Source: Watersipora subatra | Lineage: Eukaryota > Bryozoa > Gymnolaemata > Cheilostomatida > Watersiporidae | Assembly: GCF_963576615.1 (NCBI RefSeq) | Contig: NC_088711.1 | Span: forward strand, 63,583,248-63,647,247 | Direction: 5' to 3' | Length of the DNA: 64,000 nucleotides | In this document: in pieces, positions 3,517 through 50,859 of the stretch | Position numbering within the stretch: the stretch's first letter is position 1 | Layout: each line of letters starts with the position of its first letter | The notes under the pieces: generated by a model | Database searches by the model: none | What the model was told of the DNA's origin: nothing | Seen by the model: only the letters and a program-made list of their open reading frames with translations | Made by a program: the position numbers and the translations under genes

Positions 3517-4392
3517 TATTGGGAACAGCTAAGATCTTGAGGCAAGTGCTCAAACTCCCAGCTCTCTAGTAGGAGACCTGAGTTTGAGTAGACATTACCA
3601 CCCACTTGAGCGAACCAGAAAAAACAATTTTTATATAAAATATATACAAAAATATATAAATAAAAATATATATGCCAGAGAGGACATGCTACCATACCTA
3701 CAAGGACTCTATGCAATCCTCATGGGAATAAATTGGATGGTGTGTAAGTAAAGAGAACATTATGAATGACACAAAAGGCTAGCAGACGGATGCATCGATT
3801 ACTAAAATGCACCAGAGATTGAATGTATGACAGCACATTTATAGCAAATCGATTGTCACATGGCTTTTACGGTCAAATTTTCTGAGCAACCACCTGTATC
3901 ATCAGCAATTCATGATGGATTATTTTTTACTTTTGTCAACAGCCATAGAATTTTTTGAAGAAAACCAAAGGTAGCGATAAATATCTGTGATATCTGAATT
4001 CATTCAGTGTATACTTATCGTAGATATGGAAGATGTCAAGTTACAAGTTTTTAAAACTTGTATTCAGTTTTTGCCCTCTATCATCTCACTGAGAGTTTCT
4101 GAATGCTAGCCAAGTACATATCAATGTTGTATCCAAGTACATCTCGAGGTTGTATTCAAATAAATCTCGACGTTGTCTCCAATATTTGTCAATATTTCTG
4201 GAGAATGCACTCTTAATTTGATTCATTAACAGAAGAAATGAGGCCTTTTACAGTAGTTTTGATTTAGAAGCAATTTTGGAATTGTTTACGTAGTAGAAAG
4301 CAAAAACTTTGCATAAATTATTTACGTTATAAGGTCGTCTGTTGTAATAGATAAATGAGTACAAGATGTAGCTCTTAGAAACAAACCCTCAC
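3517..4392. other. Non-coding; SINE-like fragment at the left
   Basis: 3537-3610 contains 'caagtgctcaaactcccagc' followed by 'agacctgagtttgag', which looks like a decayed tRNA-derived SINE. The rest of the segment shows no exon, and I see no helicase C-lobe motif on the minus strand. If HELLS continues leftward, this is intron. Confidence 0.4.
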
Positions 4393-7300
4393 CGGTTCTT
4401 CCTTCTTTTTTAACAGCTGCATTATAGTCTTGTTGACAGTAGCCTCATAGAAAGTTCGCTGTTGTTGAGTGAGCGGGGCATAGACGAGGAGCTCCTGTTT
4501 AGGAGGTAGATTGAGCTCCACATCGGCCTTGAGACGACGCAGAATGAAAGGAGTCATGATCTTGTGAAGCATGGCCAAAACATTTCTTTTCTTCTCTTCG
4601 GCGATAAGTTGTTGCTGCTGGTCCTTTTTAAGGCAGTCGAGTTTGAACCAGTACTCAAAGCTACGGAAAGGAAATCGTGTCTAAATAGCGGAGAGACCTG
4701 CTATGAACATGCCATTAGGAGTTGCGCTGCTCACTACTATTATTCAGTTCCTAAAGAAGGACAACGATTATAGTGTGCCATACGGTATATGGGGACGGCC
4801 GTAAGAACTGATATTTTAAGAAAAGAGTCAGACAGTTGCATTTGTAGCTGCAAACAATACTTTGCTGCTGTTTCACAACATAAAGATTAAATAAAATTAT
4901 GAGAACTACCAATATATTTAATGGTAGATTGTTGCTTTTTTGTAAAGCAAAGAGGAAATATATAAACCTTGTATCTTCGAGCTCCCAATACAACAAAAAA
5001 TGCAATAATAACATAATAATAAAATATAATGTTAGCAACTCTGGTGTAAATATTTTGAATTAGCTTCCAACTAGTCAATTATCAACTTTGCCAAACTTTA
5101 ATAACAGATTTTGTTGTGAACCCAGACTTTGATCTCCTTAACCCTATTGATGCCTGAGAGAAAAAGTTGTCTGTCTCCCTTGTTTATGTTAAATTAGATA
5201 ACTGAGTAGTCGGATGAGTCAAACCAACCTGAAGAGAAAGATTTCCTGAGAGTCATCAGATCAACTGTTATTGTTATCATTTAGTGGATCATTTTTGTTA
5301 TTTATAGTCATGTTTCCATTAGAACAAAAACAGACAAGCATTCTCTAATCTTCATCTCAAAAACTGAAAACATGAGCGATACCTGTCCAAGTCATCAAAG
5401 ACTTCTGGAAGAAGAAAGTTCAGCAAAGACCAAAGTTCTGAAAGGTTGTTTTGGAGAGGGGTGCCTGTCAGCAGCACTCGATGTGTACTGTCATATAGCC
5501 TTAGCTCTCTGTAAGCAAAAAATATTTATGAGTTGCCGATTTATGTAATTATGTATATGGTGCAGCCTTTGCATACAGAGTTCATCTGTTTAAGAGTTGC
5601 TAATGCCGTCACAGTTGAGCAATTATTCCCTTAATAATATACAGTACATTGTTGAATAATTATAAAATAAATGATAAATACTTCCAATAAGTACATAAAT
5701 AATATTAGAAAGTAAATGCACTATATAAAACATATAAAAAATACATGTAAAGAAGTAAACTGAAAACAACTAAATTCCTTGAATGAAACTAAGCAGAATA
5801 TAAAAATATTTTTTTATTGTCGCTTCAGCCTTACCAGAGAGACAAGCAAATGGAGGTGCAGCCTTGGCAATACAGGAGAGCGACGAAGTAGTGTTAGAGC
5901 TAGTCTAACATGACCTCCAATTGTCCTCCAAATTAACATATAAATCAACTTGTTTACGTTCTCTTGTTTCATTTTGGATTTATGAATATTTTATCTTTAA
6001 TTATGACAGCTTTTCCAATTTGACTCTTTTTTTCTTGGCTTCTTTTTTATTCTCATCCCGACAATAACCTCTAGATGGCTTGAGAGATTTTTTTAAAGAT
6101 GTCTGATCAAGTTTTAATTTAAAGAAAAGCATCGCCCTTCTCCCTTTTGTCCACCACTACTTTAATTTGCACTAGCTATTCTGAAATCCAAAATTTTAAA
6201 ACTGAAAAAGGCAGTAAGAAACACTATCGAATATTATTTGAACACCATCAAACCAAAAAGTATGAAGGAGAATGCATAATATTTATTAATTTATAAAACT
6301 GCCATGTTTCAAAAAACTTCAGACACCATACTTAGTGAATTACTTCCAAAAATGACTTATAAATTACTTATAGAAATACCACTTGTAAATTATGCCGCAC
6401 GTCAGAAGAATTCATAAGTTAATATGATCAGAATTTGAGGTGCAACCCTATAGTAATGACTCTAAAATGCCTTTAGCATAGACATTAGGGTGCCTACTTG
6501 ATGAGCCTGCACTGGGCATTCTTGATTCTATGGCCTTCATCAACTATGAGATACTTCCAGTGCATGGACATGAGGTACTGTCTATCAACCATGGCTACTT
6601 CATATGACGTGCAAACTACTGGCTGACTTGACCATTGGCCATCAATGTCCGTGGATTTGCGTATGGATCTCCTCAGTACTTCCCTTTCGTCTTTTGAGCC
6701 ATGGTAGAGCACCACTGGCACCTGTCAGAGAGCATGCACTACATTGACACCAAACAACACGGTAGAGCACCACTTGCACCTGTCGGAGAGCATGCACTAC
6801 ATTGACACCAAACAACTCGGTAGAGCACCACTGCCACCTGTAAGATAGCATGCACTACATTGACACCAAACAACATAGTAGAGCACCACTGGCACCTGTC
6901 GGAGAGCATGCACTACATTGACACCAAACAACATGGTAGAGCACCACTGGCACCTGTCAGAGAGCATGCACTACATTGACACCAAACAACACGGTAGAGC
7001 ACCACTGGCACCTGTAAGATAGCATGCACTACATTGACACCAAACAACATGGTAGAGCACCACTGGCACCTGTCAGAGAGCATGCACTACATTGACACCA
7101 AACAACTCGGTAGAGCACCACTGGCACCTGTAAGATAGCATGCACTACATTGACACCAAACAACACAGTAGAGCACCACTGGCACCTGTAAGATAGCATG
7201 CACTACATTGACACCAAACAACACAGTAGAGCACCACTGGCACCTGTAAGATAGCATGCACTACATTGACACCAAACAACAAGCTTCAAATCTGTCTCAG

Positions 7301-10300
7301 GATGTAGACATACTGCTATGAGAATAGACGTGGACCAACTCAGAAGCTAGGAGTTCATGATGAGATAAAAACTACGAGAAAAGTTTCCATCGAATGGAAT
7401 TTATATTAAACTATGTAACAAGCATTCTAAAACCTACCTTGGGAGCAAATCTATGGAACTCATTCACCCAGTTGGGGAGGGTTGAGAGAGGCACAACAAT
7501 GAGGAATGGTCCCTTGATATCCATGGTTATGAGATGCGCTATAGCTGCTATGCACTGAATTGTCTTCCCCAGACCCATTTCGTCAGCTAGGATTCCATTC
7601 ACTCCATTCTCAAACATGGTCTGCAATACAAATCCATTTCACATTCAACATCAGATCCAACACATTCATCATTCTAACATGACCCGTTCAAGACAAACTA
7701 GTTTACCGCCAACTACTGAGCATATCGTGTAAACGCCTTGGGATTGAGTTGTCACGAGAGGAAAGAAGTGGCTCACATCACCGTTTCGAGGTTTATCGAC
7801 AGTTCTGTTGATGAATGAGTACTATTGTCAATCGTAATCTCGACCAAAATATCAAACCGCTGATAGCCAAAAAAATTGCAAAATTATTTGTACAAAAAAG
7901 GTTAGAATAGGAAATAAGCTAAGATATCAGTGGATGACGATATCCACGGACAACACATAGCATCTCTATCAATAAATCTCACTTTGACATCGTGTCTGTC
8001 TGTTTGTCTGCTGTGCATATCTAAATTTTTTGCTGAGTTTGTCCAAAATTCACAGACATACTCAGTGCCTTCCGCCAGGTCACCAAAATATTTGGTTTCA
8101 CAACTCCATCAGGTTCCTGACAACCAGCCTCTTAAACACCACCCGCTGGCTATCTGATTGTAAATCAAAGAATCGTTGGGCGTCACCTGGCTCACTGCTA
8201 GTCTATAATTGGAATAATTCTATGTCCTTCGCATAGCTCATTGGAATAACTCTATGTCCTTCGCATAGCTCATTGGAGATAAAAGCCGCTCACATTGTGT
8301 AAGAATGTTCTAGTTCATGGATGGGTCTAATTAGCTAGTTCGTGGGGTCTTACAAACTCAGTATGTTTACAAACAATGGGTCAATGTTGTTTGGATTATC
8401 AGGAGTCATTGCTATGGAATCTACTACAGGTTACACCACGTAAAATTGTAAATGCTAATTCTTTCAAAAATGAACTGAAGCGCTACCTCAGACAACCAGA
8501 CTAGACTAAACTAACTAGACAGACTTCTGCTGACTCTACTTTCAGGTTCAGCGCCTTGATTAGCCTTGCTATTGCGCACAGGGACCTCATCATCACCTTC
8601 CCTGGAGTGACATTTTTTTTCTATTTTTCTTGTTTTTGTATACTGTAAGAAGCACTCTTCATATTATTTTTTGTAGTTATATTATAGATGAAAATAAACA
8701 AACAAACAAATATAAATGTGTCGGGAACAGATATGCCAATTGTCAGGAGCAGACTTGCCAACCGCTTGAAAACTTAAACTAGAGTATTCTGTAGCCCCAA
8801 ATAGCTACGTAAAAACCTAAGTTATTCACAATTTTACTGCAGTTCCAAAATTTGTATATAGTCAATATCTTCATATCTATCATAGTTTCATTCTAGAGCA
8901 GTCTTGTGTTTACAGTATCTGAGTTTTTCCTATAAAAATTACTCTCAAGTTTTTCCTATAAAAAACTCAAAACACACATTGTGAACTAAGGTTGTACAAA
9001 TGGAAGTTGTGCGCTCCACAACAAGCAGATCTTAACAGGAAGCAAAGGAAATTCGTATATACTAATAACTGTTATGCCAGCCCATATCGATGAGGGCATT
9101 TGCGCAGCTTGCCAGTATCATAAAGTGTGCCGTAATTTGATATAGAGTAGACAAAAAGGGGAGCTTACATTGAGCCAGAGGAGGCCATCAACTTGGTACG
9201 GTCGGAGAGTTCCAGTGAACAAAAGAGGGCAACCCGAGGAGAGAGCCATATCAGAGTTGCTGACTTGAGACTGCTGACTAGAACTGATGGAATCGCTAAG
9301 GCTTGTCTCGTTTTCAGCCTGCAAATCCATCATTGACAGTAGCTCTATGACACATATCTATGAATCTAGGTCATTACACGCATCTATGCAAGTAGCTCTA
9401 CAAAATACAACTCTTAGATTAGATCTGTTGCATGCTTATGAGAGAGGCTCTACAGAAAATATCTATGAGAGTAATTTTATAGAATACATCTATGAGGAAA
9501 GGTCTGTAACATGTATGCATTATTAAAATGGGTAAGCAATAAATCGAAGCATAACTTACTTATGGTCAACAGCACAACAGTTATAGAGTTGAGTGTATTC
9601 TACAAGCGATATATGATATTGAAGGTATGAATTATTTGTGCCCATCCTATGTGTGACAGTTTGACAAAAAATATTAAGTAACACGGTTCTGTACAAAGAG
9701 TGTAGCTATAGTACAAAGAGTGTAGCTGTAGTACAAAAATTGTAGCTGTAGTACAAAAAGTGTAGCTATACCTAGTACAAATAGTGTAGCTATAGTAGAA
9801 ATAGTGTAGCTATAGTAGAAATAGTGTAGCTATAGTAGAAATAGTGTAGCTATATGTACTACAAATAGTGCAGCTATAGTACAAAGAGTGTAGCTATAGT
9901 ACAAATAATGTAGCTATAGTACAAATAGTGTAGCTATAGTACAAATAGTGTAGCTATAGTAGAAATAGTGTAGCTATAGTAGAAATAGTGTAGCTATATG
10001 TAGTACAAATAGTGCAGCTATAGTACAAAGAGTGTAGCTATAGTACAAATAATGTAGCTATAGTACAAATAGTGTAGCTATAGTACAAATAGTGTAGCTA
10101 TAGTACAAATAATGTAGCTACTGTACAAAGAGTGTAGCTAAGTTCCAAAGAGTGTAGCTATAGTACAAAGAGTGTAGCTATAGTACCAAGAGTGAAGCTA
10201 TAGTACAAAGAGTGTAGCTATAGTACAAATAGTGTAGCTATAGTACAAAGAGAGTAGCTATAGTACAAAAAGTGTAGCTATAGTACAAAGAGTGTAGCTA

Positions 10301-16073: not shown

Positions 16074-19000
16074 ATGGCTGGATGTAGTACAATTTGTGCT
16101 ATTCTTCTTGCGTCTCTTGCCGCAGTTGTTCATTGTGAAGTATTTAGTGCTTTGGCTACCCTTACGGATTCTCTTCACCGAGAAAAAGTTCTGGCTCATG
16201 GCCTGAGACAGTATGTTGAGCTTGAACAAAACCGTCTACAAAAGGTCTTGGCGTAAGTAGTCAGTTCTTGGTAGTAAGATTGGTAACTCCTCAAACGTCA
16301 TCCTAAAAGAGTTTTATCCATAGTTACATTAAAACTCGTCTATGATCACGTGAGAACTGCGGCATTGGTTGTCGTTTTAGGTATTTTTCAAAGCATATTT
16401 CTAACTATTTATTTTAGATGTTTTATATATTTATTTTGATATGCTACATTTTTAATTTAATAGTCTTAGTGCTGAGATAACAGACTCTGGCTAATTAATT
16501 GTTATGAAATGTGAAAGTGAGCATCATATCAAAAGTTATCCTCATTAAACTAGCAAAATCACAAATTAATGCATGAAGATCCATAGGAAGTCAATGGAAT
16601 ACTCCAGATAAATATATCATCTCATGTCAACCAATTTTTCTAATATTTTAGTGATATAACTTTTTCTTGTTTGTAAGCCTGAAATAGTATCATAATAATG
16701 AACATTGATTCTGGCAGATTTCATAATCTTGTTTAAATGGCAATTCCTGACACTTTGCTGGCTTGTTAAGAGTATGTGGGAAGATGTCAGCTATGCTACG
16801 TTGATAGTTTGTCAGCCCCATCTAAATATGTTAAGGTATGCAGTTTACAATCATTTCTTTTTGACACCTTGGAATCTGCTAGATTACTAAGGATGGAGCT
16901 TATTATGTTACAAAACCGTTATCCATACTTCTCCAATCCTGGGCAAGCAGTATGACAAAATTGTATTGTGTTTAAAGCTCTATACCACTCTTCTTTCCTT
17001 CACACTTCATGAACTCCCATACATTTTATTTTCTGATGTTTCCGTGTACAGTATCATCTTCTAGCTATGTTCATTTATCTTCATATTTAATAAGTTTTTA
17101 TAATTCTTTTTCTTATATTTTATGTGTTTTTTGTAAATTCGTCTGTTGCCTTGCTGACAACATTTAGCAAGATGAACAGTAACCCGCATACAGCTTTGTA
17201 GTGGCACCATCACTTTGCTTTGCAAGATATTCTAAGCAATGCGACTTGCGGGCGATTCAAAGTACCGCAGGTATTACTTTGTTTCTCCTTCATAGAAATG
17301 TTTAGGATTTGTAACCGAGTATCACGTACACTTGTCAAATTAGATATCTGTGACCGGAGGTAGATAATCTGTTTCAAACGTGGTAGTTTCCCCATGACAT
17401 AGGTACTATCATATGACAGCTGTCCGTAAAGCCGCTATAATCTCTAGACATGACAATAGAAAGAAGTTGTTTGACATTTGAAGCTCTTTATTTAACTAAT
17501 CACACTTCAATGAGATCGCGATCAATCCCGTGAGTGTCAATTTCTCAGACTGTTAGACAGTAGACATCACCAGTTTGTCTTCCTTTTTCACCTCCTCGTG
17601 ATCTTTCGTCCCCTCTCCGTATACAAGCTGGTACCAGCACATGTGTTCAGTTGTTTTTCTGCTTACAGACTGGCGGATGATTACGATGAGCATGCGGATA
17701 GAGCTCTTGTGAATGCAGAGAGTTACATAGCAAATCCCATCAATGCTTACCTCTTTGTTAAAAAGTTCACATCAGAGCTGCCACAGACTCAGGAACTTGT
17801 CAGCTCCGATGAGAATTCTAGATGTATGTATAGTAATATAGATGTATGTGTAATAACCATAGATGTATGCATAATAGCCATAAATGTATGCGCAGTAACC
17901 ATTGATGTATGTGTAATAACCATAGATATATGTATAGTAACTATAGATTTATACATAGTAGTCATATATATCTGTATAGTCGCCATAGATATATGTATAG
18001 TAGCTATAGATATATGTATAGTAGCCATAGATGTAGGTATAGTAGCCATAGATGTATAGTAGCCATAGATGTATGTATAGTAGCCATAGATGTATGTATA
18101 ATAGCCATAGATGTATGTGTATTAGCCATATATGTATGTATAGTAGCCATAGATGTATGTATAGTAGCCATAGATGTATGTATAGTAGCCATAGATGTAT
18201 GTATAATAGCCATAGATGTATGTGTAGTAGCCATAGGTATATGTATAGTAGCCATAGATATATGTATAGTAGCCATATATGTATGTATGGTAGCCATAGA
18301 TAAATGTATAGTAGCCATAGATGTATGTGTAGTAGCCATAGATATATGTATAGTAGCCATACATGTATGTATGTATAGTAGTCATACATGTATGTATAGT
18401 AGCCATAGATGTATGTATAGTAGCCATAGATGTATGTATAGTAGCCATGTATATATGTATAGTAACCATAGGTGTATGTATAGTAGCCATAGATGTATGT
18501 ATAATTACGATAAATATATGTATAGTAACCGTAGATGTATGTGTAGTAACTAGGGCCCCCAACATACCTATTTTGTGACACGAAATGGCTAATTTGAACA
18601 AATATTTGCATCGACTTACAAAGTACTTACCTTCATGCGATGTCTGACATTTTTCTCATGTGCTTTAATTAAAGTATATGTTTAATTATAATGTTGATAT
18701 AAATTATATGTATGTTAAAACGGGGCTTCACTCCTGTCTGTAAGGACATTAACTTAAATTGTTATAATGATTGTAGTTTGACAAATAAGACATGTATGTA
18801 TATGTAGCATCAGTTTATAAGCTTAAGTGAGAGTACAAAGGCTAGTTTATCTTGATTCCATCTAGATAAGTCAGTTTGAGCCTTGAAAGAAGTTGTAATA
18901 ACTGTTCATAAGTTGCTGCCAATCTCAATGGCATCAGATCAATTTGTACAGTGGAAGTTTGGAAGGATCGAAAAAAGAGCGATCAATATTCCGTGGTGAA

Positions 19001-22000
19001 TTGTTACCAAGTGAGATTAAATTATTCACAAAGTGTTAGAGGCGTTGCTTACAGTAATTAACTCTGGTGCTAGCATAGAAAGGATAGTTTTAACTTTTTG
19101 TCTAAGAAACAACTTTTCGTTCCAAAATCTTTAAAAATAGCATTTTTTTATAGATTAGCAAATGCTGCCACAAACGAGGATGACGCATAGAAACATTTAG
19201 ATTATATGACGGAGTTTTTAACACTTGAAAGACATTTTGTTTTTGCTAATAATGTTGTGTTAGAGGTTATAAATTTTTAATAAAATCAGTATTAATTTTA
19301 TAAGTAAAATATGATACCTAAGAACAGCGTGTCAGAGCACAAGTACCATAATAATTTTACTAATAACACAGATTTCATGCTAATAAAAATACTGCTTAAT
19401 TATAAAAACCAGTTGATTTGTTTTCTCATAAACCAAAGCCTTTGGTTTATGAAACAGCAATAGTTCATGTATCAAAAACCAAATTGGTTTGTACTAACCC
19501 TGTTTATGCCTAGTGTTTCTGGACATGCTCGAGGAGCACAGGCCATACCTGCCAGACAATGAGGATCTGGAGGGGGTAGTTGCAGCAGTGCTGAGATTAC
19601 AGGACACATATGAGCTGACCTCACAGCGAATTGCTGACGGCACTTTTACTCCCATCAACAGGTCTCCTCCCCTTACAGGTACTCCTGCCTTGAGTAGCTT
19701 ACGTAAGGTCATGGATTGTGCGTGATATCGTGTGGCTCTCAGTTGGTTTGTGCATTTTTATGTTAACAGTGTAAGGTTTGTGACTAGTTTAATAGAGGTG
19801 CTCCATATCAGTGTGCGATTCTTTCAAATATGAGTTTGGATCTCTTGCTATTTATAACAGACCAGTTTGTATTTTCATACGTGAAACCAATATCTAGTTA
19901 AGCCTTGACTTATAATTAACTTAAAATACAAATATTTTAACATTCAATCTAGCATTTGGGTGTTTTATTCACTCACTGAAGCAATAGAGCTCTGTAAATC
20001 AATAGATATGTGTGCAATTCTCTCCAGGTAGTATGGCTGTTTGAATAATATTCAATTTGCTTAATACTTTTTTTATTGTTAAATTACTGAGTTCCAAGAG
20101 GAATAGCATGAGTTCCAAGAGGAATAGCATGAGTTCCAAGAGGAATAGCATGAGTTACAAGAGGAATAGCATGAGTTCCGAGAGGAATAGCATGAGTTCC
20201 GAGAGGAATAGCATGAGTTCCAAGAGGACTAGTATGGGTGGTGGTAGTGATCACAAAAAAGAAAAGCAATGCTTAGAATTAAAGCAAGAAATTATAGAAA
20301 GACTTCAGCAAACATGCAGATCCACGCTTGAAAAACTCTCTATTAGTAATCATATGGAAAAACTCTCTATTAGTAATTATATGGAAAAACTCTATTAGTA
20401 ATTATACGGAAAAACTCTCTATTAGTAATTATATGGAAAAACTTTCTATTAGTAATCATATGGAAAAACTCTCTCTTAGTAATCATATGGAAAAACTCTC
20501 TATTAGTAATCATATGGAAAAACTCTCTATTAGTAATCATATGGAAAAACTCTCTATTAGTAATCATATGGAAAAACTCTCTATTAGTAATCATATGGAA
20601 AAACTCTCTATTAGTAATCATATGGAAAAACTCTCTATTAGTAATTATATGGAAAAAGTGAAAGTTGTGGGAAGAAATGTAACTACAGCGTTAACATTTG
20701 GTTGTTAACTTCCTTTATCATGTAGCATTAGTGGGTATGAGTTGTCTTTCCTTGAAATTGAATCAAAAGCTACAAGCTATCGCGCTGCAACATCAATAAA
20801 AAAGACAACTATAATTTATGTTTATCATGTTATACCGCTTAGATGCCTATTTTATGTCTATTTTGGACTGTACGATCGAAATTGTAAACTGACCTTGACA
20901 TTCAGGTTACTCTTTTATAAAAGTTCATTTCTACTATGACCGTTATTCACAGCTTTGTTTTAAATGTTTTTCACTGCTTGTTATTAACTCAGATGTCTAT
21001 GATTAGATTGTGCAGTTAGTTATATATGGAAATCATCATGCCTGTTATTAACTCAGACGTCTATGATAAGATTGTGCAGTTAGTTATATATGGAAATCAT
21101 CAACAATTTTTACTTCAACGACTCTAAGTTCGGTTTCAAATCAATTTGAATTTACATTTCTGCAACTTAAAAAGGCTTTTAGTGCCATCATCATAACGAG
21201 TTTGGAATTAATAGTACCAGATGTGTTGACACGCTGTCTGCACTTCAGTGATTACTGGAATGCACCTGTAAGTCACCAGCTACTAGGCAGTTATACAACT
21301 ACCTTATGCAACTCATTACAAAACGTGACTAACACCTATTTCCGTCTCCTTGTTGTGCGCTCCAAAGACACAAAGGCCTTGTCGCTGAATAAAGTTATTA
21401 TGTGGCTGACATCTATGTTGCAGTTTTATTCGTCTGGTACATGACCATTTCCTAAATTCTTTGTAAATACGTGTCAGTAGTCACTGTATATCGCATGCTG
21501 ATTATCTTGTGTTGTATATATTGAGATATGGCATGTCACCCTCAATTCCTAATCACTTACTAACGGTAATACTGACCATATCCATTAACTGGTCGGTGTT
21601 ATTAGGTGGGGAGTCTGTCATGATTTATATACCCAGCGCCTTGCTGACGCAAGTGCAATCATTTTCGTTGTTTAAAAGTTAGTATGAATAGATAGGAACT
21701 GCTGCCATCACCATAAAGCATGTGATACACATCAATACTTATTTCAACCCGTAGCCTGCCTCCACTACAACCTTATTGACAGTAGACCTTTGTTCTATCA
21801 TGTCTGTCTGTCTGTCTGCTTAGTGTGAGCTCTGCTTATGCATGTTTTATATTTGTTGGCACGCAGTACTGCATGCCCTTTCTCTACCCCATCTTTAGAT
21901 GTATGCACCTGAGCCTACTAACAGAGGAGAACTACTAATCTTGCAGCTGCCGACTGCTACCAATTTGGAGTGCACGCTCACGACCGCCAGGACTACTACC

Positions 22001-25000
22001 ACACACTCCTCTGGATGGAGGAGGCCCACACTCGTAGACTGCGTGAGGCTAGCAACAGCACGGCATCCCTTCCCAGCATTCTTGATTATCTCTCATTCGC
22101 CTGCTACAATGTGAGGGTAACCTCTGTGCGGCTGTGTTCTGTCACGGCTAGACGAAGTCACGTTCAGCTTGAGTTCTTTAGTTTTAGCTTTGAGGTTTTG
22201 CTTTTTATGCTTTATCTTTTGCTTTCTTACTATCCGCATGTTCATTCTTCGCTCTCATTCTTTAGCCCAGCTACTAACTCTCTCTCTGATGCCTCTTACC
22301 ATCCTAGACTGTCTCTCTTTGCTTACAACAGCTTCTGACTGCTTCCATCTTGGGCGGTTTGCCTATGGCCAAGAGGACTGGTACCATATGCTCTCGTGGA
22401 TGTCGCAGGCACTGCATGTTCTCGAAAAAGAGGAGAACAAAACAGCGAAGGAGTCTGAGGTGCTAGACTACCTATCTTATGCTGCTACATTGGTGAGTGG
22501 CAGTCCCGCTCCCTCTTTCACTACCCGCGCCTTGCTCTCTCTCATTCTCCTTCCGCTCCTCTTTTTCAAGCGTCTTTTTTGTGTGGGCAGCATTCTCTCT
22601 CTATTGTCTTTATGTTACTTATGAAAAAAATTTATGTTGACTTTTACAGGAAAGAAGAATAATTTTTTACAACTTGATATAGTAGTTCAGGCTTCACCTA
22701 TTGTTTTAGCCACACAATTTTCTTTTCTGTATTGGGAGTTGTGCGCACGTTCACTGGCGCAAGTGTGATGGATTCCAAGTACATGTAGCATCTAGCGATT
22801 TTCTGTTAATGCATTGTTGCAAGTTTTCAGGTACCCTAGGACACTTAAGTATTCGCGGCATCTAACTTTCGCGTTTTCGCGGAGTCATCATCACGCGAAA
22901 AATTCATGCGCGAAACTAAACTATCATAACGAACTAGCGAAAATTCGAAATTAAATAGCTATGTTCTACGCAGGCCTGTATTCACTGGTTGCAAGTTGGG
23001 GGGCTAATGTTAGACGACTAGTTATGAACATCTGGGGTGTGGAGAAGGGGGGGGGGTGCTGTAAGCTCCCAACAGGTTTCTCTTATGCAGGGCCTCAGCC
23101 GGGCCTCTCACGTGAAGTTTTAAAAAATTTTATTGGCAAGTATCAACATTTTTCTATTTTTTGAGATTTGCTTTGTTTTAGCTGATGTGACTGACAAAAC
23201 GTTTTAAAATTAAAACAGGCAAAACTTGTATGCAGTTAAAAAGCTCAGAAAGAAGACATCTTTTTTTTAAGCGTTTTAACAAAGATCATTTTTGCCGATT
23301 TTATTTCAAGTTCATTAAGTAGGATATGGGCAAGCAGATGTTTGCTAAAACTTGATATTTTGCAAACCTTTATAAAAGTCGTTAACAAGAATATTTTGCC
23401 GCTGATGAAGATAATAATGACGCCTAAGAACTACTAAAAGTTGACGTTTGTATCTATGGCTTCGAATAAAGTGATATTCTACAGCGATAAAAACCTTTCT
23501 ATAGCCGTTGGACTATGAAATTCCTAAAAAGTTGGGGCGTCTTAGCCGGCCAGCTGTCCAAGGGAATACGGCCCTGTAGTTCATTGATATCCACAACAAA
23601 ATCGTGATATTAGAAATGCAGATAATTTTGTGTGTGATTGAGCTCATTGGGAAATTTCTAGTAAATTCGTTAATACACCGAATGAGCAGCATGGCAAAGC
23701 AAATTAAGATAACAAGTTTTTTTGGAAAAGCCAAGACAAACGAAGAAGATGATGATATCAGTTTAGTCACCGAATTTGTAACTGATGAGGATGAAAGTCT
23801 GGTAGGTGAAGTCATACAATTAAATAATACTTATTGTAGTGATGAATTTTACTGCCAACCAAAAACGATAACAACCCTCACCAGGTCCAACCATGTTATA
23901 CAGTTCTGGTTGTGATGTTGGTTGTTATCTATTTTCTTTTTTATGAGACATGTACTGTATTTGATTTTTTTTAAATTTGAAATATTGTGAACTCAATACG
24001 TGCCATGGCCATCGCTTGCTATAAATACTTGAGATCTAATATTGGTACCATATCGGTCACGACGGAAAGGACCGAGACGTCATTGATAGTCCAAGAAACA
24101 AATGGCAGCAAGCGATCACGTTGAATTATCGATTTCTGCCATACATTTATACCTGCGGGTTACAAATACAAACTAGTCGCAAATATAACAACTTTTTTTA
24201 CAAGAGGACCGGACCTGAGGAATCTAATTTGTTTGTTCCACTGTATTTATTTTCACATCACTATATTTTCGCACTCATCAGAGCTGCGAAATTAAGTTGC
24301 AGCGAAATTTTACTCTGTGTGCTACTCACGAAACTAAATACTAGCGAAATATAAGTGTCCTAGGGTACAAGCTATCTATATAAACATCGCACAACGACAT
24401 CACTATATAGTTCTCAATGACACTGTTGATGCAGTGATAATTTTGTCATAGATAGAGTACCCTTTCGTATAGCTCTAGTCGATTGAGTTTGGAATTGTCG
24501 CACCCTGGAAATGTTCTCACCAGACGTAATAGAATATATGCTAACATTTCCTGTATGTTGCAGACTGCTTGCTGGCTCACCATTTTGATGCGTACCTCTA
24601 TAGTGTCAGAAATTAGGCTTGTTTTATTCAGTTATCACAATCTTGACTAGAAGTTGTCTATAGGTCGTGAGTACACCGGCTATTGTTTTAGGATGTCTGC
24701 GGTTGACAAGGGACGTCATGAATATCAATACTTTCATCATGATGTTTTATAAACGCTCATTATTTTTGGCAATTTCTCAAAGTAAACGATAAAATGTATT
24801 TGCTATGACCCTTTGCAACTTTTGAACAAATACATGGGAAGTTTGCTGTTATTACATGAAAGCATTTGCCCCAAAGCACTGTCCAATGTAAATGATGTGA
24901 TGTGCACTGCGTGGTACTTGTAACTTTGCTTTACCTATTGCAGCAAGGCAACCTCAGGCACGCCAAGTACCTGACCGAACAGTGGATCAAGCTTGAGCCA

Positions 25001-28000
25001 AACCATGATCGGGCCCTCAGCAACCTCATCTATTTCAACAATGAGGTAGGGCTAATAATCTGTATTCCTCTCAGCCATAGCTTTACTCAACGGTTTATGA
25101 AAGTTGGAGCTTGACATCCGGGAACCAGTAGATCAAAATCTAATCGTTGTATGGAAATATTCATTTAATTAAGCAGTAACCAGTAATTTTAATTTGGGCC
25201 TGTAAAATTTGCGTCCGTCCGTTTGTGATAGCAACAAGCATGCAATTACAGATACCAACTGTATGAAGTTTTTAACTACTGCTAATCTACCATAGCTTTG
25301 CTCGCTTTCTAGGAATTTAAAAAATAAATTTTTCTAGGAAAATAAAAAACTAGGAATTTAACGGCTGTATTTATTAGCTAGGAATGTTGTACTTGGGACA
25401 GTTGTTCATATTGTCGCATAAAAAATGTAACATATTTAAAATTAAAACCGCATAAAACAGCACATGACACTCGTGACGCTGTGTAAACCTTGCTTTCATA
25501 CATCTTCTATGCCCTCACACCATGTGATATGAAATAGGAAGACAATATGATGCTAATACAACCATTCTTATTGGTTGTCCATATAGGATTGTTAACTCAA
25601 TAGACAACCCGTTTGGTGGATTCAATTTGTTTGCTTTTTAATATGCTCTCAAAGGTAATTGTCGAAATTGCCGAGTAAATGCGTATTTGAATAGCACCTT
25701 GTGGATCAAGGACAATATCTAGGTGTGCATGATTATGTGTACTTGTACAATGGCAGACCCATGCGCCGTGAGAGATTGTCGTGTGTAATAGCTATGAGAA
25801 CAATTATTCCACCATGCGATGAGATGGTTGGGTGGTGCAGATAGTAGCATGCTCAGCTGTGAGTCCGAATATTCGGGTTTGATTCACGTGCTGTGCAAAC
25901 TTTTTTCCTAAAGCTCTTAGTGTGGTATCAAGGCCTATACACACTATCACTCAAATCAACATCTAGCTTCGGACAGACAAATGGACAGACAGACATGGCT
26001 CCTATTATAGTAAAGAATCATTGTTACGAACACAAAGTAATCGATTGAGTTTAGAGCATGACATCACGCGAGAACTGTCTCTTTGTATTCTCTTATGTTC
26101 CTAGCTCATGTTTTTCACAGGGCATCACATGCCTGGCTCAGAGCACATATGGATATGATCCTCGTGCCCATGTATGCCTTATAGAGTACATGTATACCTT
26201 GTCACTAAATGTTGCTGTTCCACATCATGTCAACAGATAGAGAAGGAAGAGGCAAGTAAATTGGAGAGCAAAACAGGAGATGATGGAGTGCTGCCTCCAC
26301 TCAAGAACAAGAGAACAGCAGACAGCTACAGGAGTGGAGCAGAGTTTAAAACGTATGAGGCTCTCTGTAGAGGAGAGGATGTCAAGGTCGGAATCACTGA
26401 TAAACTAGTCCTGTCGTATTCTGTTCTAGTCTGAAAACTAACCTACACACGTGTTGTGTGGTTTGTTACTTATGATGCTTTGTAAACAATGACCAATGAG
26501 ATAGCCACTGTACAAAATATTTCTACTAGTACACTGCCAGTCCCGGACACCATGAGAGACCGTCGTGTGTAATAACCATGCGCACAATTATTCTAAGATG
26601 TGTAGAGGTGGTCGAGTGGTGCAGATGGTTATGAGCTTGGCTGGTAATCAGATTATCTAGGTTCAACTTCTATGCAGTGCAATATTATTCTCAATTCTCA
26701 CTCATCACACATCTTTTACTATAGTAAAAACTAGGTGAGTGCCCGGTGTTGCATGGGGAATATAGAAGTTTTTGAGTAGAAAATTTATTTTTAATTGGCT
26801 TTTTATGTTTGTTATAAAATTTTTCTAAAAAAATTTAAGTTTTTTTTATCCAACGAATTTGAGTAATTTAATCTCTTATTTAACCCTTCGGGTGCCATTT
26901 TTGCATTCCTGCGAATCTGTAATTGCTCAGAATCGATGAAACTTAATGACCGCTGAATGAGTATAATATGTTTACAAATTATCTACAAACTATATATTCA
27001 CAGTAAAAATATATTTCGATTGCCTATGAAGCAGTATTAGGCAGTTAGGACGAGTATTTAATTGATAAAAGAAATAGATAACGGCAAAATTTAATAAGAA
27101 AATAGATAACGGCACCCATTTAATCACGATGTTGCAAACGCTTTTTAAAAAATCATCGCCTTTTTTCAAAACTTCATGACAGCCTCCTTAATCCGAGTTC
27201 CAACACAATATCAACCTTTATACATCTATGAAATATTTAAAGGAAACGCTATATTTCTTGGTAATTGCGTTTCTCACCCATAGAAGAATGATGTTTTACG
27301 AAAATCAATTATTCGAAACTGTTCGTTTTTATAAAAAGACACGTTTTTGTATGATGTTTTATGTCTAACGTTTGTACAATGTATTTTAGTTCCAAGTTCG
27401 AAACCTTTTTTCTGTGGGAACACTCATTGTTTTTAATTTTATGAAGTTTCTGCTATCGATAATCATATTTTAAAGGATAAACATGTATTTGTTAGCTGAT
27501 CGTTTGTTGTTCAGAGCTCTATTTCTGGTCTGTAATATATTCATATTACGTTATATAACTCTGTATTAGCTTATTCTAGTCCAAACTTCTTTCATGTTAT
27601 TTTAACACTTCTAGCAGCAAAATAAAATGGTTAGCATCTATGAAATATGAACTAGAGCTCAGACACCTGTATTTTTATTTTAAAAAACAAGCTTTTTGTA
27701 TTCGGCATCATCTAGTTTACTATAAGGTCACCCAAGACAAGTACTATTGGTCATATTCTGTTGTTTAACGGGTTCTAATGATGCATAGTTAATTTGGGCT
27801 AGATAGACCAAGTAATAACAGGGCAAGAGATAAAAAAAATTGCGATGTTTTTTAAAGTGAAAAAAGGTGTCACCGAGCACATGGCGCAATGAATAATGCG
27901 GCAGTTAAAGGGTTAAGCTCTTAACTAAGAGGTTTCGTTATAACTTGAGCTAGCAGTGGAAAAAAAATTGAGTCATGCTCTTTAAGCGTGCTAGATGAAG

Positions 28001-31000
28001 GGTGGGTATTTTAACCAATTGGCATTAAAGGTTGGCAGGTGTAATAAGTACGATGTGTTATTCCGTTGTATAGCAATGTGACTGCATTGCTTACTGGTTT
28101 AGCACGCCTGTCTGCAGGCTTGTAGGTTCCAGTTTCAAATACTGTTCAAAGCGTATGTTACCTTCCTAAACATGTAGGACACATGTAGGACAAATGACAG
28201 ACAACTGATAAACGCTAAGAGTTCTATATAGATTGGTAGTTCATCATTGCATGTAGAATACTTTTGAGGAAAGTAATTCCTATAATTCCACTCAGAAACT
28301 TGCTTTCAAAGGCGTTGTTCTCAGCTTTTTCAAGGAACTGTAAGAGAATATATGTCTGTATTAATGACAATAGCAGCTTCAAGGACTATAATATATTATC
28401 TTATTTATTAATTTAATATGTACATTTTATTATCATCATAAGGAGTTATTTCTACAGTGATTTACAAGCATGATTGATTTTACAGGTCCAGAATGGGTGT
28501 GGTGAGAACATGACCTAAATTCTCTTGTTTTATAGCCCAACCCTTACGTTCACAAGCTACGGTGCTTTTACACGACCTCAGGGGACCACCCGTTGCTTAT
28601 GCTTGCCCCAGTCAAGGTGGAGGAGTTTTACCTTGACCCTTACATAGTTCTTTATCATGATGTAATTAGTGACAAGGAGATAAAGGTGATGAAGGAGATA
28701 TCCACACCAAAGGTTTGTCCACATGAAGCAAGAGCCCCAGTTACCGTCATAAGCTCATTGCAAGTAGTAGGGATAAGCACTCGAGTTGACGCGCTTGCTC
28801 AAGCAAGCCTTAATGCTCAACTCACAATTAAATTGATTCTATGATATATTTTACTTTCTGTAGAATTGAACCGACTTGAGACTTCCTATCAGTAAAATTC
28901 AATTGAGTCCGACCCTTTACTATCACCATAGACAAATAGACTTAATTCTCTATTTTCAAATGACTCGAGTTAAAATGCATCAACGCTTCCCATTATTATT
29001 AATAATTGATGCTTTATGATTACTATCTCTCTGATTATTATCGGCTGACAAAAATCCATCACTGACAATGATGTCTCAAGTAAACCACTCTGTTATTTGA
29101 TACGTGCCGAAGCATCAAATAACAGGGTACCAACCTCCAACTTACTTTCAGACAGATAGACATGCATAGACATACATAGACATAGATAGACGTAGCTCCT
29201 ATTGTAAAGATTATTATTATCTCCTGTCTGTCAGTCGATACCATAAGTTGAGTCCTTAAGTTGACATGTAATACACAATCTGTTGATTTTCTTAAATATA
29301 TTTGGAGAATTTATTAAGCCTTTGTTCCATAATGCATGTCCATGCCGAGTACATGCCCTGTGTGACTATAGCTAGCTGTGAATATTGTAGCTGGCTCGTG
29401 CGACAGTAAATGACCCAGCTACTGGGAAGTTAGTAACCGCCCACTACAGGGTCAGCAAAAGGTTAGTAATATGCATACATTGCTCTTCCCTAGCTCGGAT
29501 GTATCTGTCAGGTGCTCCTATATACATGTATATAATAATTTATATAATACACCCACATATATACTAGATATATATGTGTATATATTTAGATTGTGCTAAT
29601 ATATATTTTGTTCCGATATATATATATATATATTGTGCTGATGTATATATATAATATGAGATAAAATTTGAATGCGTATATCAAATCTTGATGTTTTTTA
29701 TTAAGGGGCTATTGCATAGTTACTATGGGTTTCTATCATACCCCTCTATATGACATTTTCGCTATACGATGCCAAGACCGGAACAAATTAAAATCATACG
29801 ACGAGGGTCCGCTGTACATACCCTCTATTGACATATATGTTATCTACTGACGTATATATTTTCTACTGGCGTAAATATTATATTTTCTACTGACATATAT
29901 ATTCTCTTCTGACATATATATTCTCTACATGCGTATATATTCTCTACTGGCGTCTATATTCTCTACTGACGTCTATATTCTCTACTGACGTCTATATTCT
30001 CTACTGACGTATATATTCTCTACTGACGTGTATATTCTGTACTGACGTATATATTCTCTACTGACGTGTATATTCTCTACTGACGTATATATCCTCTACT
30101 GACGTATATATTCTCTACTGACGTATATATTCTCTACTGGCGTCTATATTCTCTACTGACGTGTATATTCTCTACTGACGTATATATTCTCGACTGGCGT
30201 CTATATTCTCTACTGACGTCTATATTCTCTACTGACGTATACATCCTCTACTGACGTATATATCCTCTACTGACGTATATATTCTCTACTGACGTCTATA
30301 TTCTCTACTTGCGTCTATATTCTCTACTGACGTGTATATTCTCTACTGACGTATATATTTTTTACTGACGTATATATCCTCTACTGACGTGTATATTCTG
30401 TACTGACGTATATATTCTCTACTGGCGTCTATATTCTCTACTGACGTGTATATTCTCTACTGACGTATATATTCTCGACTGGCGTCTATATTTTCTACTG
30501 ACGTCTATATTCTCTACTGACGTATACATTCTTTACTGATGTATATTGTCTGTACTGACGTATATGTTTTGTACTGATGTATATGTTTTGTACTGTTGTA
30601 TATGTTCTGTACTGATTTATATGTTCTGTACGGATGTATATGTTCTGTACAAGTATAATTGATATGCAGTGCCTGGTTGAGAGATGAAATGCATCCGACT
30701 GTCCAGACTCTCTCCAATAGAATCAGTGCTATAACTCATTTGAGTATGGAGAAGGCTGAGGACTTGCAGGTTAGTCAACTAAATACATAACTCATTTGAG
30801 TATGGAGAAGGCTGAGGACTTGCAGGTTAGTCAACTAACTACATAACTCATTTGAGTATGGAGAAGGCTGAGGACTTACAGGTTAGTCAACTAAATACAT
30901 AACTCATTTGAGTATGGAGAAGGCTGAGGACTTGCAGGTTAGTCAACTAAATACATAACTCATTTGAGTATGGAGAAGGCTGAGGACTTGCAGGTTAGTC

Positions 31001-34000
31001 AACTAAATACATAACTCATTTGAGTATGGAGAAGGCTGAGGACTTGCAGGTTAGTCAACTAACTACATAACTCATTTGAGTATGGAGAAGGCTGAGGACT
31101 TGCAGGTTAGTCAACTAACTATTTCAAGTTAGAGTTGTCTTAGCAGTAAGTGACTAAGTTGCGTAAACAAGAAATAAGTTAATTACCTTAATGTAAAAGT
31201 GAGTAGATTATCCATATAGGAAGTAAATAGATCATTAATACAGAAAATGTATCCATTATTGAAAATGAGAGTAAATGGGTTACCTAGCTAAATTTACTAA
31301 AGCGCGGAGTGTTCAGACAGTTTTTCATCAGCATTTGTTAGTGTTTGTTACAACTGTGTGTGCGCATGTATGTATCTATTGTTGTTCACTATGGGCTTCA
31401 GAGAAGCGACAAAAAAGTGGTGAGAAGAAAAAAGTTGTTTTGTCTAAACAAGCAAAGCCTAGGATAACAGAAGGTACGAAAAAGGGATGCATTTAGTTGG
31501 TCTAACCAAAGAATATGGCTGAAAAAAACCAATAAACAAAAACTGTATTCTTTACATTATGTACTACTCTCATTTTTATGTTAGTTTGGCTGTAATTTAA
31601 TTCTTAAATGTATTTGTTACAGGCTTGGATGCATTTTTGTAATTTATACAAAAAAAGTTCAATTTTTAAGGGGCCCAGAACCGATGAGGGCTTTGATATT
31701 GTGAAAGCCTTTTTATTTTGAAAGTTTCTGCATCACGAATATGATTTCCAAAACAAATTTTTTTCTTATGTGGAGGTACTACTGTAATAGTAGAAATAGC
31801 TAAGCTATTGGTGAAAAAACTGATCAGACTATTCATAGAGTAAGGTGAAGATTAAAAATCTAATCCTTTATGGCAAGAAGAGATGTTTAATTGAATAACA
31901 TTTTGTAGATTCAAAACTATGGCATTGGTGGACAATATGAACCTCATTGTGATCATGCGAGGGTAAGTGTATTAAAATAGACATTATTGCTTGAACTATG
32001 TGTTTAATAAGGTGGACATAAACATGTCTGAAGCAATCATTTATGCCATTCTCTCAGATATCATCATGTCAGTAGGTATTCTTATATCTGCTCTCCTTCA
32101 AGGCCAGTCGGTTTAACAAAATTGATCAAGACTTTCTGTTTAACCCTTAAGATGTCTTATATTTTAAAGCGAATGTTTGCAATATTACAGATTGTTTTCG
32201 ATTCTACATTGGTCAAGTTATATGAGGTTTTATTTGGGTGTTTAAGAACTTTATTGCTGCAGCTTACTATCTTGATAAACGATAAGTTAACACTCACATG
32301 TACATTTCTATATATTAAGGTAACGATGTGTTCTCACAACATAAGGTTTGGGCACCAAGAGACTTGCACAACGTTATTAGTGTGAGGATTCTGTTCTTCA
32401 GCCGACACCAAACTTCATTCTTGAAATATTTTGTTGAGAGAGTCACCTGCGACTGGCTTTTTAAGTTTACTCACAGTCAAGTTTCTTCTAAACATCTCTT
32501 CTAGTTCAAAATAAAAAATGTGGTCTAAAGCGTCATGTCAACAATTGCGGATTGAATACAATGGGTGAGCAACTTCCAACTTAGTTGCTTTTTACCGCTA
32601 ATGTAGTGATTCACAATGAACATTCACACTAATTTTTTCACCCAATTGTTAATAGAGGTATCTGTGTTCGGGTATTATAAAAATTTTGCTAAAGATTTTT
32701 TGTTGAAACTGTTCTGCTGAAGCTAATTTATTCAAAGTGTGTCCGAGCTTACTCAAAGTAACTCTACTTATCCAACTTAACTCTACGCGCATGAAAATGT
32801 TTGTGTTTTTGCTTTCGGTGATAGACTAAAATTTATTCTAAACTGATTTTTAAGATTTGTTCATGACTTACTTTACATCAGTTCCTCTCATGTACCTATG
32901 AGAGATTAGCCTGACCGACCTTGATTGAATCCAGAGGGTTAGTATATGTCGACCAGATTTGCTAGTCGTGTAGCGTTTATACCTCTCGCCGGACCAAAAG
33001 ATAAATTAACAACATGTTGATCATACTGGGTGACCGTTTAGAATTGTTTGCTCTTGAAATACGCAACTGATTAGCTGAAAATATGCTTTTATGTTTTCAT
33101 TGGTTGTTATGAGTTTTCACCTCTGTACTGTAGCGTGCCTCACTTGACTCTAGAACTCTAGTTACATGCATGAAAATTTTAGTAAAACCAACAACTGTGC
33201 TTAGTAGTTTTCGGTTACACCGAAAGAGTTATCAGCACTTGTTGTTTTTGATGACACTCTCCAGTGTCAAACCAGTCATAGATGTAGTAACTATGGTTTT
33301 CAGAGAACCAGAGAGATGGACACATTTTCAGAAGATGAGGGTAATAGAATAGCCACGTGGATGTTTTATGTAAGTTGCTAATGTGGATGGGGCTATAATT
33401 CTCCCATCCTCCCTGGTGGTCTCGGGGCTATGTAATATTGTAAGCTTTTCTAATTCCATTTATAGCCTTCTGTAGATGTTAGACAGTTTGAGGAACATCG
33501 CGGCAATAGAGTTGCAACCTTTCTCATCTATGTAAGTGGAAGTCTATGTGTTTCTTTACGATGCATGGGCTGATCTCATTTCTATCTATCTAGACTGTCA
33601 GTGGTCCATTAGCTAACAACATGGATTTCTAGCATACATTGCAAAATTAAACTTGTTTCAAAAAATTATGACCTATAATAAAGCTTATTGGAGATCAACT
33701 TATTGGAGATACACAGTCAAATCTCCAGTTATTATCTCTCCAACATGTGAATTTCTCATCAATTCAAAAAAATATTTCACTCAAACCCCAAAGCAATCTC
33801 TAACACAAGACATTCGTAATTTTCAAAATATAGTTATGTTAGTGAAAGTGAAAAGACTGATATAAATTATAATTATTATATACAAATATAATAATTATAA
33901 TATATATTATACAATAATATAGTATAACAAAATAATATAGCAGTGATAAATATATAAGCTAAGTTAGTTTAAACTAGTCTAACTTGGGAGTTTGGCCTGC

Positions 34001-37000
34001 AGCGTTTCTTTATCACCACCTCTACCTGCGAATCTATGCATTGCTTAGCCCTCACTTTCATCTGCATGTCTTCAAAGGTAAAGTAGCAATAAAGATCTCT
34101 TTTTATTGATTATTCCTTTAGGGATTTAGGTTTTATACCAAAAATATTATGCATGAATCACAATAATATTTCAACTTATAAGGACATTATCCTTACGAAT
34201 CGAATCAAATAATTTAGTTGTTTATATAGTAATATGGAATCTTTGTAGCCTTTTTATTTTCCTGTCTATATTTGCTCCAACATATGAGTTTTAACATATA
34301 AGGCAGATCTCATGACAGATTAACGTCATATCTAGAGGTTTTGACTGCATGAAGTTAAATTTACTTCTCTTAAAATTGTTAACTATCACTGGCTTTTTGT
34401 GTCTAACATGGGAGATGACGGCCTGTGTAGGTAGTGTAACTTCATAGGTAGTTCATTTCATACGCACTGTAAGCCTAATACGTGTCTAAGAATATTATCT
34501 ACACAAAAGTAAATTGTTTTTATTGATGGTCCGTCTATAGATTTATATATAATAGCTGTTAAATTTTCCTTGATTTAATCAAGGAAACTTATACTAGTGT
34601 AGGAGCTACTAAAAGTTACTATTTGGTACCAGGATATTTGTGCCGCATGATGCAATTTTAACGTGTCAAAATAGAAAAGAATAGGCATGCCATCAAGTGA
34701 ATCGTGTCATGTGAATCATTGCCAATAATCAAAGATATCTATAAGCCTTGAGAAGCTACTAATTCTGTATGGGACAAGCTAACCGAATCTGTCATTCTAC
34801 TCACAGGATTGCATTCTGGGTATTGCTAACTTATGTTGCTTATCTTCCTGTAAATCGGTAGACAGATTAATTTGGTATCTAGTTGTAAGGTGTTACATGA
34901 TTCTTATGTAACTTCTGATTGTGTCATTGTCCACGCTTATTTGTTCTCTACTTAGGACTTTGGTCACGTCATCTGTTGTCAATCGTTAGCCAGGTTGTGT
35001 CCATGTATATCTGATATAGTACACCACACAGCTACTCACAGTTTCTGATGGTTTTCAGCAATTTTTGAAAATCTATTTTTAATCGATGATGAGTATAGCA
35101 TTTCTTAGCTTTACCTGTTTGATTACATCACACATTTGGATGGAGTTGCTTTTTCCAAAGTAATCATTGAAGGCTACCTTTGTTGTCTACATGCCTGCCA
35201 AAACTTGGTTGTTGGTTAGTAATGACCAGTCAACGAAGTTTACAACAATTGTGCTAATTTATCTTGTTAGAATTCATAAAGTTACTCATTTGCAATCATA
35301 TTTTTATAAAAATGAGAAGATAAACTTATAAAGAGTGTTTCATAAATATTGATTTTGGGATATCATAACCAATTAATAAAATGATTAAATGTATCCAATT
35401 TTGATTGTAAATATTTATTATTGGCCTTCGTGTTATTGAACAAACGTACAGTACAGCTTCGTTCATTGTTTGTGTGGGTCAATTGTAGTTCACCGATGTG
35501 GATGCAGGAGGTTTGACAGTCTTTACTCAAATTGGTGCTAAAATTCCTCCTGTGAAGGTGTGTACTAGTATCTAATCATTAAGCATTGACTTCTCAAGGA
35601 TATGTAAGATGTGGACATGTTGGATTCAATCGGAAAAGGGATGTATTCTTCATATTGCAGGGTGCTGCAGCGTTCTGGCACAACTTGAAGCCTGATGGTG
35701 AGGGAGATGATAACACTCGACACGCCGGCTGTCCTGTCCTATCTGGATCTAAATGGGGTTAGTTGCTGGGGTGTTTTTAACCGTATAAACACCGGTTTGT
35801 CACTGTATTGTAGCAGATGGAATTTGTAACCAGCAAATGCAGGATTAAGCTCACTCTGTCCAACCTTAGTTGACAAATATTGTTTGCTTTCCTTCTATAT
35901 GATGCGGTATTTACATGTACAGTCAAACTCGGATAACTCGCCCTCGGATAGCTCAAACACATGGTTAACTCGAACCGATTTGTTTGGTCCGTTCCCACTC
36001 GATGGTAACTTGCTTAGATAACTCGAACTTAACATCATTAACAGTTTTTTGCCCGACGGCTACCGAGACGGTTATTATCACTTTAGAATATCATTTTATT
36101 CCAAGCCATAGAGATAAACATCAATTTATAGTAGTTCATAGGCGTCGTTATCACCATCATCGGCAAAATATGTTATCGACTTTTCTAAAGGTTTGCAAAA
36201 AATCAAATTTTACCAAACATCCGCTTTGCGATGGCCCTTCAAAAGCAAGGAAAAGCGTAGCAACCTTCGGATAAACTTAAAGTAAAATCGGCAAAATTGA
36301 TCTTGGTTAAAACGCTCAGGAGAAAACGATGTTTTTTTCTGAGCGTTTTAACCGCGATCAAGTTTCGCCAATTTTAACCTGAGAACGTCCCGGCAGTCAC
36401 ATCACCTAAAATAACATACAAATCTCAAGTGATAGAAAAATATCTATACAGCCATACTTCAACCTACGCGTGCTCCAACATACGAGAAACTTGAGATACG
36501 AGCCAGCTTTTAAAGAATAGAGAAAGCATAATATTATTATGCTTTATTATTTATCTTGAGGTGTTGACTGATGTTCTAAAAAAAGAATCAAGGAGATTGA
36601 CCAACCAGAAGCTGAGATATAGCCAGCCAAACACAGGTCTACCAAAAAACATAAGTGTTTTGGTAATCATCAATATATGACGTATGAAATCAACTTGTGT
36701 GCCCATTGGTCAATTAAGCCAACTATTGCGCTCTCCTATAACAATCACGGCGTTTTAATTGGTTTAATTGGTTTAATCCCTGGAAGTATAGAACAATCAA
36801 ATTGGGCCTAACAATCATCGCTCCTAGAATTCCGAACCAGTCCCTCTGACGTGTAGATTAGTTTTAGCATAAAATAATTACAAGCATCTATTATTTCGCA
36901 ACATTTCGCTATCTTGCTAGTTCAGCTCAGTTTTGTTGTTCTCCTACTTAGCTTCCCTATTCAGACTCATCTTTAGCGTTGTTCAGATTTTTTAACTATA

Positions 37001-48882: not shown

Positions 48883-50859
<1,977 letters not shown>

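Follow-up and report, generated by a model that had tools for sequence, protein, structure and literature searches.

Tandem fourth exons in a Watersipora subatra P4HA gene: a probable either-or choice set by reading frame, with a predicted effect on the collagen-peptide groove

Results

The stretch analysed here, referred to as the window, comprises 64,000 nucleotides (nt) of the bryozoan Watersipora subatra (contig NC_088711.1, positions 63,583,248 to 63,647,247), and all positions given below count from its first letter. Its plus strand carries a complete P4HA gene (16074-39918), in which 14 exon positions join in frame from the ATG at 16074 to a stop codon ending at 39918, and the subject of this report is a pair of adjacent exons, 4a and 4b, each of which could fill the fourth of these positions. 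P4HA encodes the alpha subunit of collagen prolyl 4-hydroxylase, an alpha2beta2 complex with PDI that hydroxylates collagen. The exons were picked by eye and then checked with a script that spliced them in silico. Three spliced forms match P4Ha_N (PF08336) with 97.3, 96.3 and 96.3 bits (cut-off 25.3), and TPR_P4H (PF23558), the family of the peptide-substrate-binding (PSB) domain, is matched with 92.7 bits by the form with 4a and with 97.0 and 96.8 bits by the forms with 4b (cut-off 27). A 2OG-Fe(II) oxygenase domain also lies above its curated cut-off in the spliced product. The product aligns with the human collagen prolyl 4-hydroxylase structures 4bta (N-terminal and PSB domains) and 7zsc (catalytic domain), and the latter alignment contains yePHcDha and tRHagcpvlsgsKw, that is, the HxD motif in constant exon 10 (31909-31962) and the second His and the Lys in constant exon 13 (35661-35757). 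We take the HxD and the second His to be iron ligands and the Lys to bind 2-oxoglutarate. Its three domains identify the gene as one for a P4HA alpha subunit, for which collagen hydroxylation is predicted.

Exon 4a (21947-22110, 164 nt) and exon 4b (22332-22492, 161 nt) both have entry phase 1 and exit phase 0, and either fits between constant exon 3 (19514-19678, phase 1, donor at 19679) and constant exon 5 (24944-25045, phase 0). Splicing in silico with one of the two gave a full protein, of 538 amino acids with 4a and of 537 with 4b. When both were skipped the frame stayed open for 183 amino acids and ended at a stop in exon 5, and when both were joined it met a TAG within 4b (22464-22466) after 265 amino acids, 26 nt before the junction of 4b with exon 5 and 846-978 nt before the last exon junction. 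By reading frame, only exactly one of 4a and 4b gives a full-length protein. Taken over both unproductive forms the stops precede the last junction by 767-978 nt, for which reason decay of such transcripts is expected, and judged by the frames those with both exons or neither are probably removed by nonsense-mediated decay.

All four splice sites of the pair are GT/AG. In scoring by held-out matrices, which are weak since each was built from 11 other sites of the same gene, the 4a and 4b acceptors ranked 29 and 84 of 1407 AG sites. Both donors agree with MAG/GTRAGT (the slash marking the exon end) at 7 of 9 positions, a level of agreement that 58 of the gene's 1505 GT sites reach or exceed. 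The first-pass annotation of the window had put the donor of exon 3 after 19678, both exons and the acceptor at 24944 where they were found here, and its further claims also held, namely that the pair shares entry and exit phases and has good splice sites, that skipping both shifts the frame, that joining both runs into a TAG near the end of 4b, and that a full protein comes from single inclusion only.

The 221-nt intron between the two exons (22111-22331) is pyrimidine-rich as judged by eye, and 8 of the 17 positions just before the 4a acceptor are pyrimidines. A TACTAAC-like site stands 26 nt upstream of 4a, measured from branch A to exon, with a TACTAAT at 9 nt; upstream of 4b the corresponding distance is 55 nt, its branch-like A lying at 22277, 166 nt from the 4a donor. 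The pyrimidine-rich intron, the distant 4b branch site and the pyrimidine content before 4a would fit exons whose use is regulated. Regarding the means of exclusion, steric hindrance is unlikely given the length of the intron and the spacing between branch-like A and 4a donor. Incompatibility of U2 and U12 sites was rejected by eye, without a dedicated test, since every site is GT-AG and the donors are U2-like.

Both exons encode versions of one PSB segment, as had been proposed from the letters alone. The lone peptides of 4a and 4b match TPR_P4H with 57.8 and 65.3 bits against the same cut-off, and human PSB domains in the PDB with best E values of 3.7e-11 and 1.3e-12, respectively. The two peptides are identical at 21 of 53 residues (40%), and their BLOSUM score was reached by none of 100,000 residue shuffles. 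At the nucleotide level 61 of 106 first and second codon positions are identical versus 16 of 53 third positions (Fisher p 0.0014), the latter compared with 24.7% expected by chance (p 0.34). Third positions at chance level indicate that synonymous sites are saturated and that the synonymous record of the duplication has been erased, with both peptides nonetheless retained. Given stop codons at the rate observed in three adjacent introns, a 53-codon stretch evolving neutrally would lack a stop in 3.5% of cases. This comparison identifies 4a and 4b as copies of a tandem duplication that are both old and both retained. A tblastn search of the window at E below 1 revealed no third copy of exon 4, and no relatives of 4b were found in one scan of prokaryote contigs and one of viral contigs. 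An AlphaFold2 model of the 4a segment, made from a two-row alignment, consisted of helices and was too weak to use (mean predicted local distance difference test 62.8, predicted template modelling score 0.35).

The residues that line the peptide groove were mapped via PMC12433258 and are given in human P4HA1 numbering. According to that source, the P8 pocket of human P4HA1 is formed by Tyr158, Asp192, Tyr193, Tyr196 and Arg223 and the P5 pocket by Tyr196, Tyr199, Asn227, Tyr230 and Phe231, and alanine at 193, 196 or 230 raises the Michaelis constant (KM). Of the groove residues, those from 158 to 199 come from exon 4 and the remainder from constant exon 5, which supplies Arg223, Asn227, Tyr230, Phe231 and Asn233. 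Exon 4a encodes His158, Asp192, Tyr193, Phe196 and Tyr199 and exon 4b Tyr158, Asp192, Tyr193, Tyr196 and Thr199, so that three of the five exon-4 groove residues differ (158, 196 and 199). The predicted 4b form, together with the constant Arg223, retains the canonical P8 pocket but carries Thr at position 199 of P5 in place of Tyr, and the predicted 4a form retains Tyr199 of P5 but with His158 and Phe196. Since position 233 is Asn in the constant exon, Tyr233 of the P1 pocket of PSB-I is absent from both forms, as it is in human PSB-II. The choice between 4a and 4b could thus alter collagen-peptide specificity.

A second tandem pair, which the first-pass annotation did not list, lies further downstream in the same gene. 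Exons 11a (33304-33369) and 11b (33466-33531) are 66 nt each, have phase 0-0, are separated by an intron of 96 nt, and both fit the gene. They encode alternatives of one segment just after the HxD motif, at the beta II-beta III loop of the catalytic domain by alignment to 7zsc. The peptides share 8 of 22 residues, and none of 100,000 shuffles was as good; each donor agrees with the consensus at 7 of 9 positions, and the acceptors rank 147 (11a) and 18 (11b) of 1407. The choice within this pair is not forced by frame, given that inclusion of both or neither stays in frame and adds or removes 22 amino acids.

The gene, with both 4a and 4b, is part of a contig of 67 Mb in the 784-Mb assembly, and the genome was searched for relatives, the match counts being lower bounds. 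The PSB-family search gave at least seven matches: 4a, 4b, exon 5, three other exon-4 sequences above the cut-off and one weak match below it. The exon-4 matches above the cut-off thus number at least five, the 4a/4b pair and one in each of three paralogous genes. The four matches elsewhere lie among P4HA-like exons and mark four genes, one on contig C10 near 40.04 Mb and three on C1 near 35.2, 40.6 and 66.3 Mb, of which the gene with the weak match is divergent. A search with the catalytic exon 13 gave at least five matches, one per gene. In the stretches compared, the three better paralogs each contain just one exon 4, of the same phases as 4a and 4b, and one exon 11, which indicates that the tandem state is particular to the present gene among those compared. 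Judged by ungapped position, of the residues at 223, 227, 230 and 231 one of these paralogs keeps none and the other two keep one each; the paralogs near 40.04 Mb on C10 and 35.2 Mb on C1 keep Tyr158, Asp192, Tyr193 and Tyr196 and differ at 227, 230 and 231. The gene with 4a and 4b is the only one of the four compared that has all of Arg223, Asn227, Tyr230 and Phe231 in exon 5, and this full set makes it the likeliest candidate among them for a working collagen groove.

Discussion

We regard it as quite probable that 4a and 4b are mutually exclusive exons derived from an old tandem duplication inside the P4HA gene, that each yields the same groove of two tetratricopeptide repeats with different walls, and that splicing thereby retunes the substrate. 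Each mRNA that makes enzyme would carry either 4a or 4b, and transcripts with both or neither would run into a premature stop and be removed by nonsense-mediated decay as in U2AF1. Exchanging the groove walls would then retune which proline-rich collagen stretches are held. A more tentative extension is that this one gene makes up to four hydroxylases, in which 4a or 4b would set which pocket, P5 or P8, is canonical, and hence which collagen stretches are held, and 11a or 11b would independently vary a loop near the active site.

Several observations weigh against the proposal of mutually exclusive exons that retune the substrate. The use of either exon, and with it their mutual exclusion, is a prediction from genomic sequence. 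Change is no more frequent at the groove positions (3 of 5) than over the whole exon (32 of 53), and a switch in specificity could therefore be drift. A tree of seven exon-4 peptides retains all four tested topologies (approximately unbiased test, p 0.18-0.54) and so does not date the duplication against other animal lineages. In addition, the donors of 4a and 4b have middling ranks of 124 and 185 of 1505 GT sites by the same held-out matrices.

Some of these observations would suit other explanations. The pair could serve unproductive splicing that lowers P4HA output, the two peptides being functionally equal; the position of the stops in both unproductive forms and the lack of groove enrichment speak for this, but a copy used for unproductive splicing alone would have no need of a peptide that still matches TPR_P4H after saturation of its third positions, and we consider it improbable. 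Alternatively, one of the two exons might be a relic, seldom or never included by splicing, with the other sufficient. The donor ranks and the modest pyrimidine content before the 4a acceptor point in that direction; both copies, however, have intact frames, matched phases, GT/AG sites, well-ranked acceptors and peptides that match the family, and such a relic is very unlikely. That the pair is a misassembled allele or an exon-like sequence arising by chance appears negligible, as copies with only 40% identity are not an assembly duplicate, each separately matches human PSB structures, and both stand at the same place on one large contig.

The reading of 4a and 4b as exclusive, substrate-retuning exons has a close formal parallel in human U2AF1, where, according to PMC5224494, exons 3 and Ab are adjacent duplicates and transcripts with both or neither contain stop codons and are lowered by nonsense-mediated decay. 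Seven amino acids separate the U2AF1 copies, whose isoforms have been measured, whereas 4a and 4b are 40% identical and are known from the genome only. The Watersipora pair would be a clean case of a reading frame that enforces an either-or choice.

Duplicated exons in alternative use also occur within the gene family, as in vertebrate P4HA1, whose pair is numbered 9 and 10. We take exon 8 of the present gene (29391-29461, 71 nt) to align with the part of human P4HA1 encoded by these alternative exons. No duplicate of exon 8 was found in the gene, and tblastn of the window at E below 1 gave two weak matches far outside it. In vertebrate P4HA2 an exon 12a forms one partner of a further pair, and we know of no counterpart of 4a/4b. 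The P4HA1 exons are named 10a and 10b in PMC5224494. According to PMC9676403 they affect the catalytic domain at its hairpin loop, whereas the P4HA2 splice variants, with exon 12b, alter the beta II-beta III loop. The vertebrate P4HA1 pair thus differs from 4a/4b in its location, as the first-pass annotation had stated when it placed it in the catalytic part, and its homologue here, exon 8, is single. Exons 11a and 11b are like the P4HA2 variants in lying at the same catalytic loop, a likeness of position in the 7zsc alignment only, and unlike the human variants, which also change loop length, they are equal in length.

The same annotation had further proposed that the exon choice would change recognition rather than catalysis. 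In so far as the two exons differ at residues lining the groove this agrees with our results, but for the gene as a whole it is too simple, as 11a and 11b lie in the catalytic domain. Its exact frame logic and its PSB segment with differing groove residues stand; the change in specificity stays a prediction, and the catalytic pair has to be added.

A further comparison is provided by the human PSB-I (P4HA1) and PSB-II (P4HA2), in which, as described in PMC12433258, Tyr233 versus Gln goes together with different peptide binding. Both cases concern differences in groove residues, but the binding change is known there and predicted here, and PSB-I and PSB-II differ between genes and in the P1 pocket, whereas 4a and 4b differ between exons of one gene and in P5 and P8. 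If the proposal is correct, splicing would here make a choice of substrate that in vertebrates is divided among paralogous genes. If the choice is moreover tissue-specific, collagen hydroxylation would be tuned by splicing at the step of substrate recruitment, beyond the catalytic loops of vertebrates. Two PSB segments that could replace each other while the rest of the enzyme stays constant would also offer a natural swap for approaching the unsolved question of what this domain does. Tandem exons are known in general and in the catalytic domain of P4HA; alternative exons in the PSB domain were absent from the matches listed in open-licence literature (titles and abstract openings), and as far as that literature shows an exon choice in this domain is new.

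Other features of the locus

An Rfam scan of the window gave no match. Tandem repeats were observed at the ends of two further exons of the gene. The 3' end of exon 9 together with its donor forms a 56-bp unit that is repeated about 6.9 times with 98% matches (30731-31118), which places several like donors in a row, six of them exact; when the first donor is read through, the frame meets a TAA within the unit. A minisatellite with a 21-bp unit in about 35 copies (17819-18548) has the donor of exon 2 (GAT/GTATGT) in its first unit. Here the frame is open to a stop ending at 18059, and later donors could therefore lengthen the protein, in steps of 7 amino acids. In the paralog on C10 the end of exon 13 (CPVLSGSKW) and its junction lie in a 46-bp unit repeated about 17 times (L012:3055-3840), making this the third end of a P4HA exon in the genome to have become a tandem array.

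The neighbouring genes were named by eye. On the minus strand, stretches at about 4375-7638 resemble a SNF2-type helicase, stretches at about 42810-45030 resemble an NADP isocitrate dehydrogenase, and exons at 48883-50859 resemble elongation factor 1-alpha.

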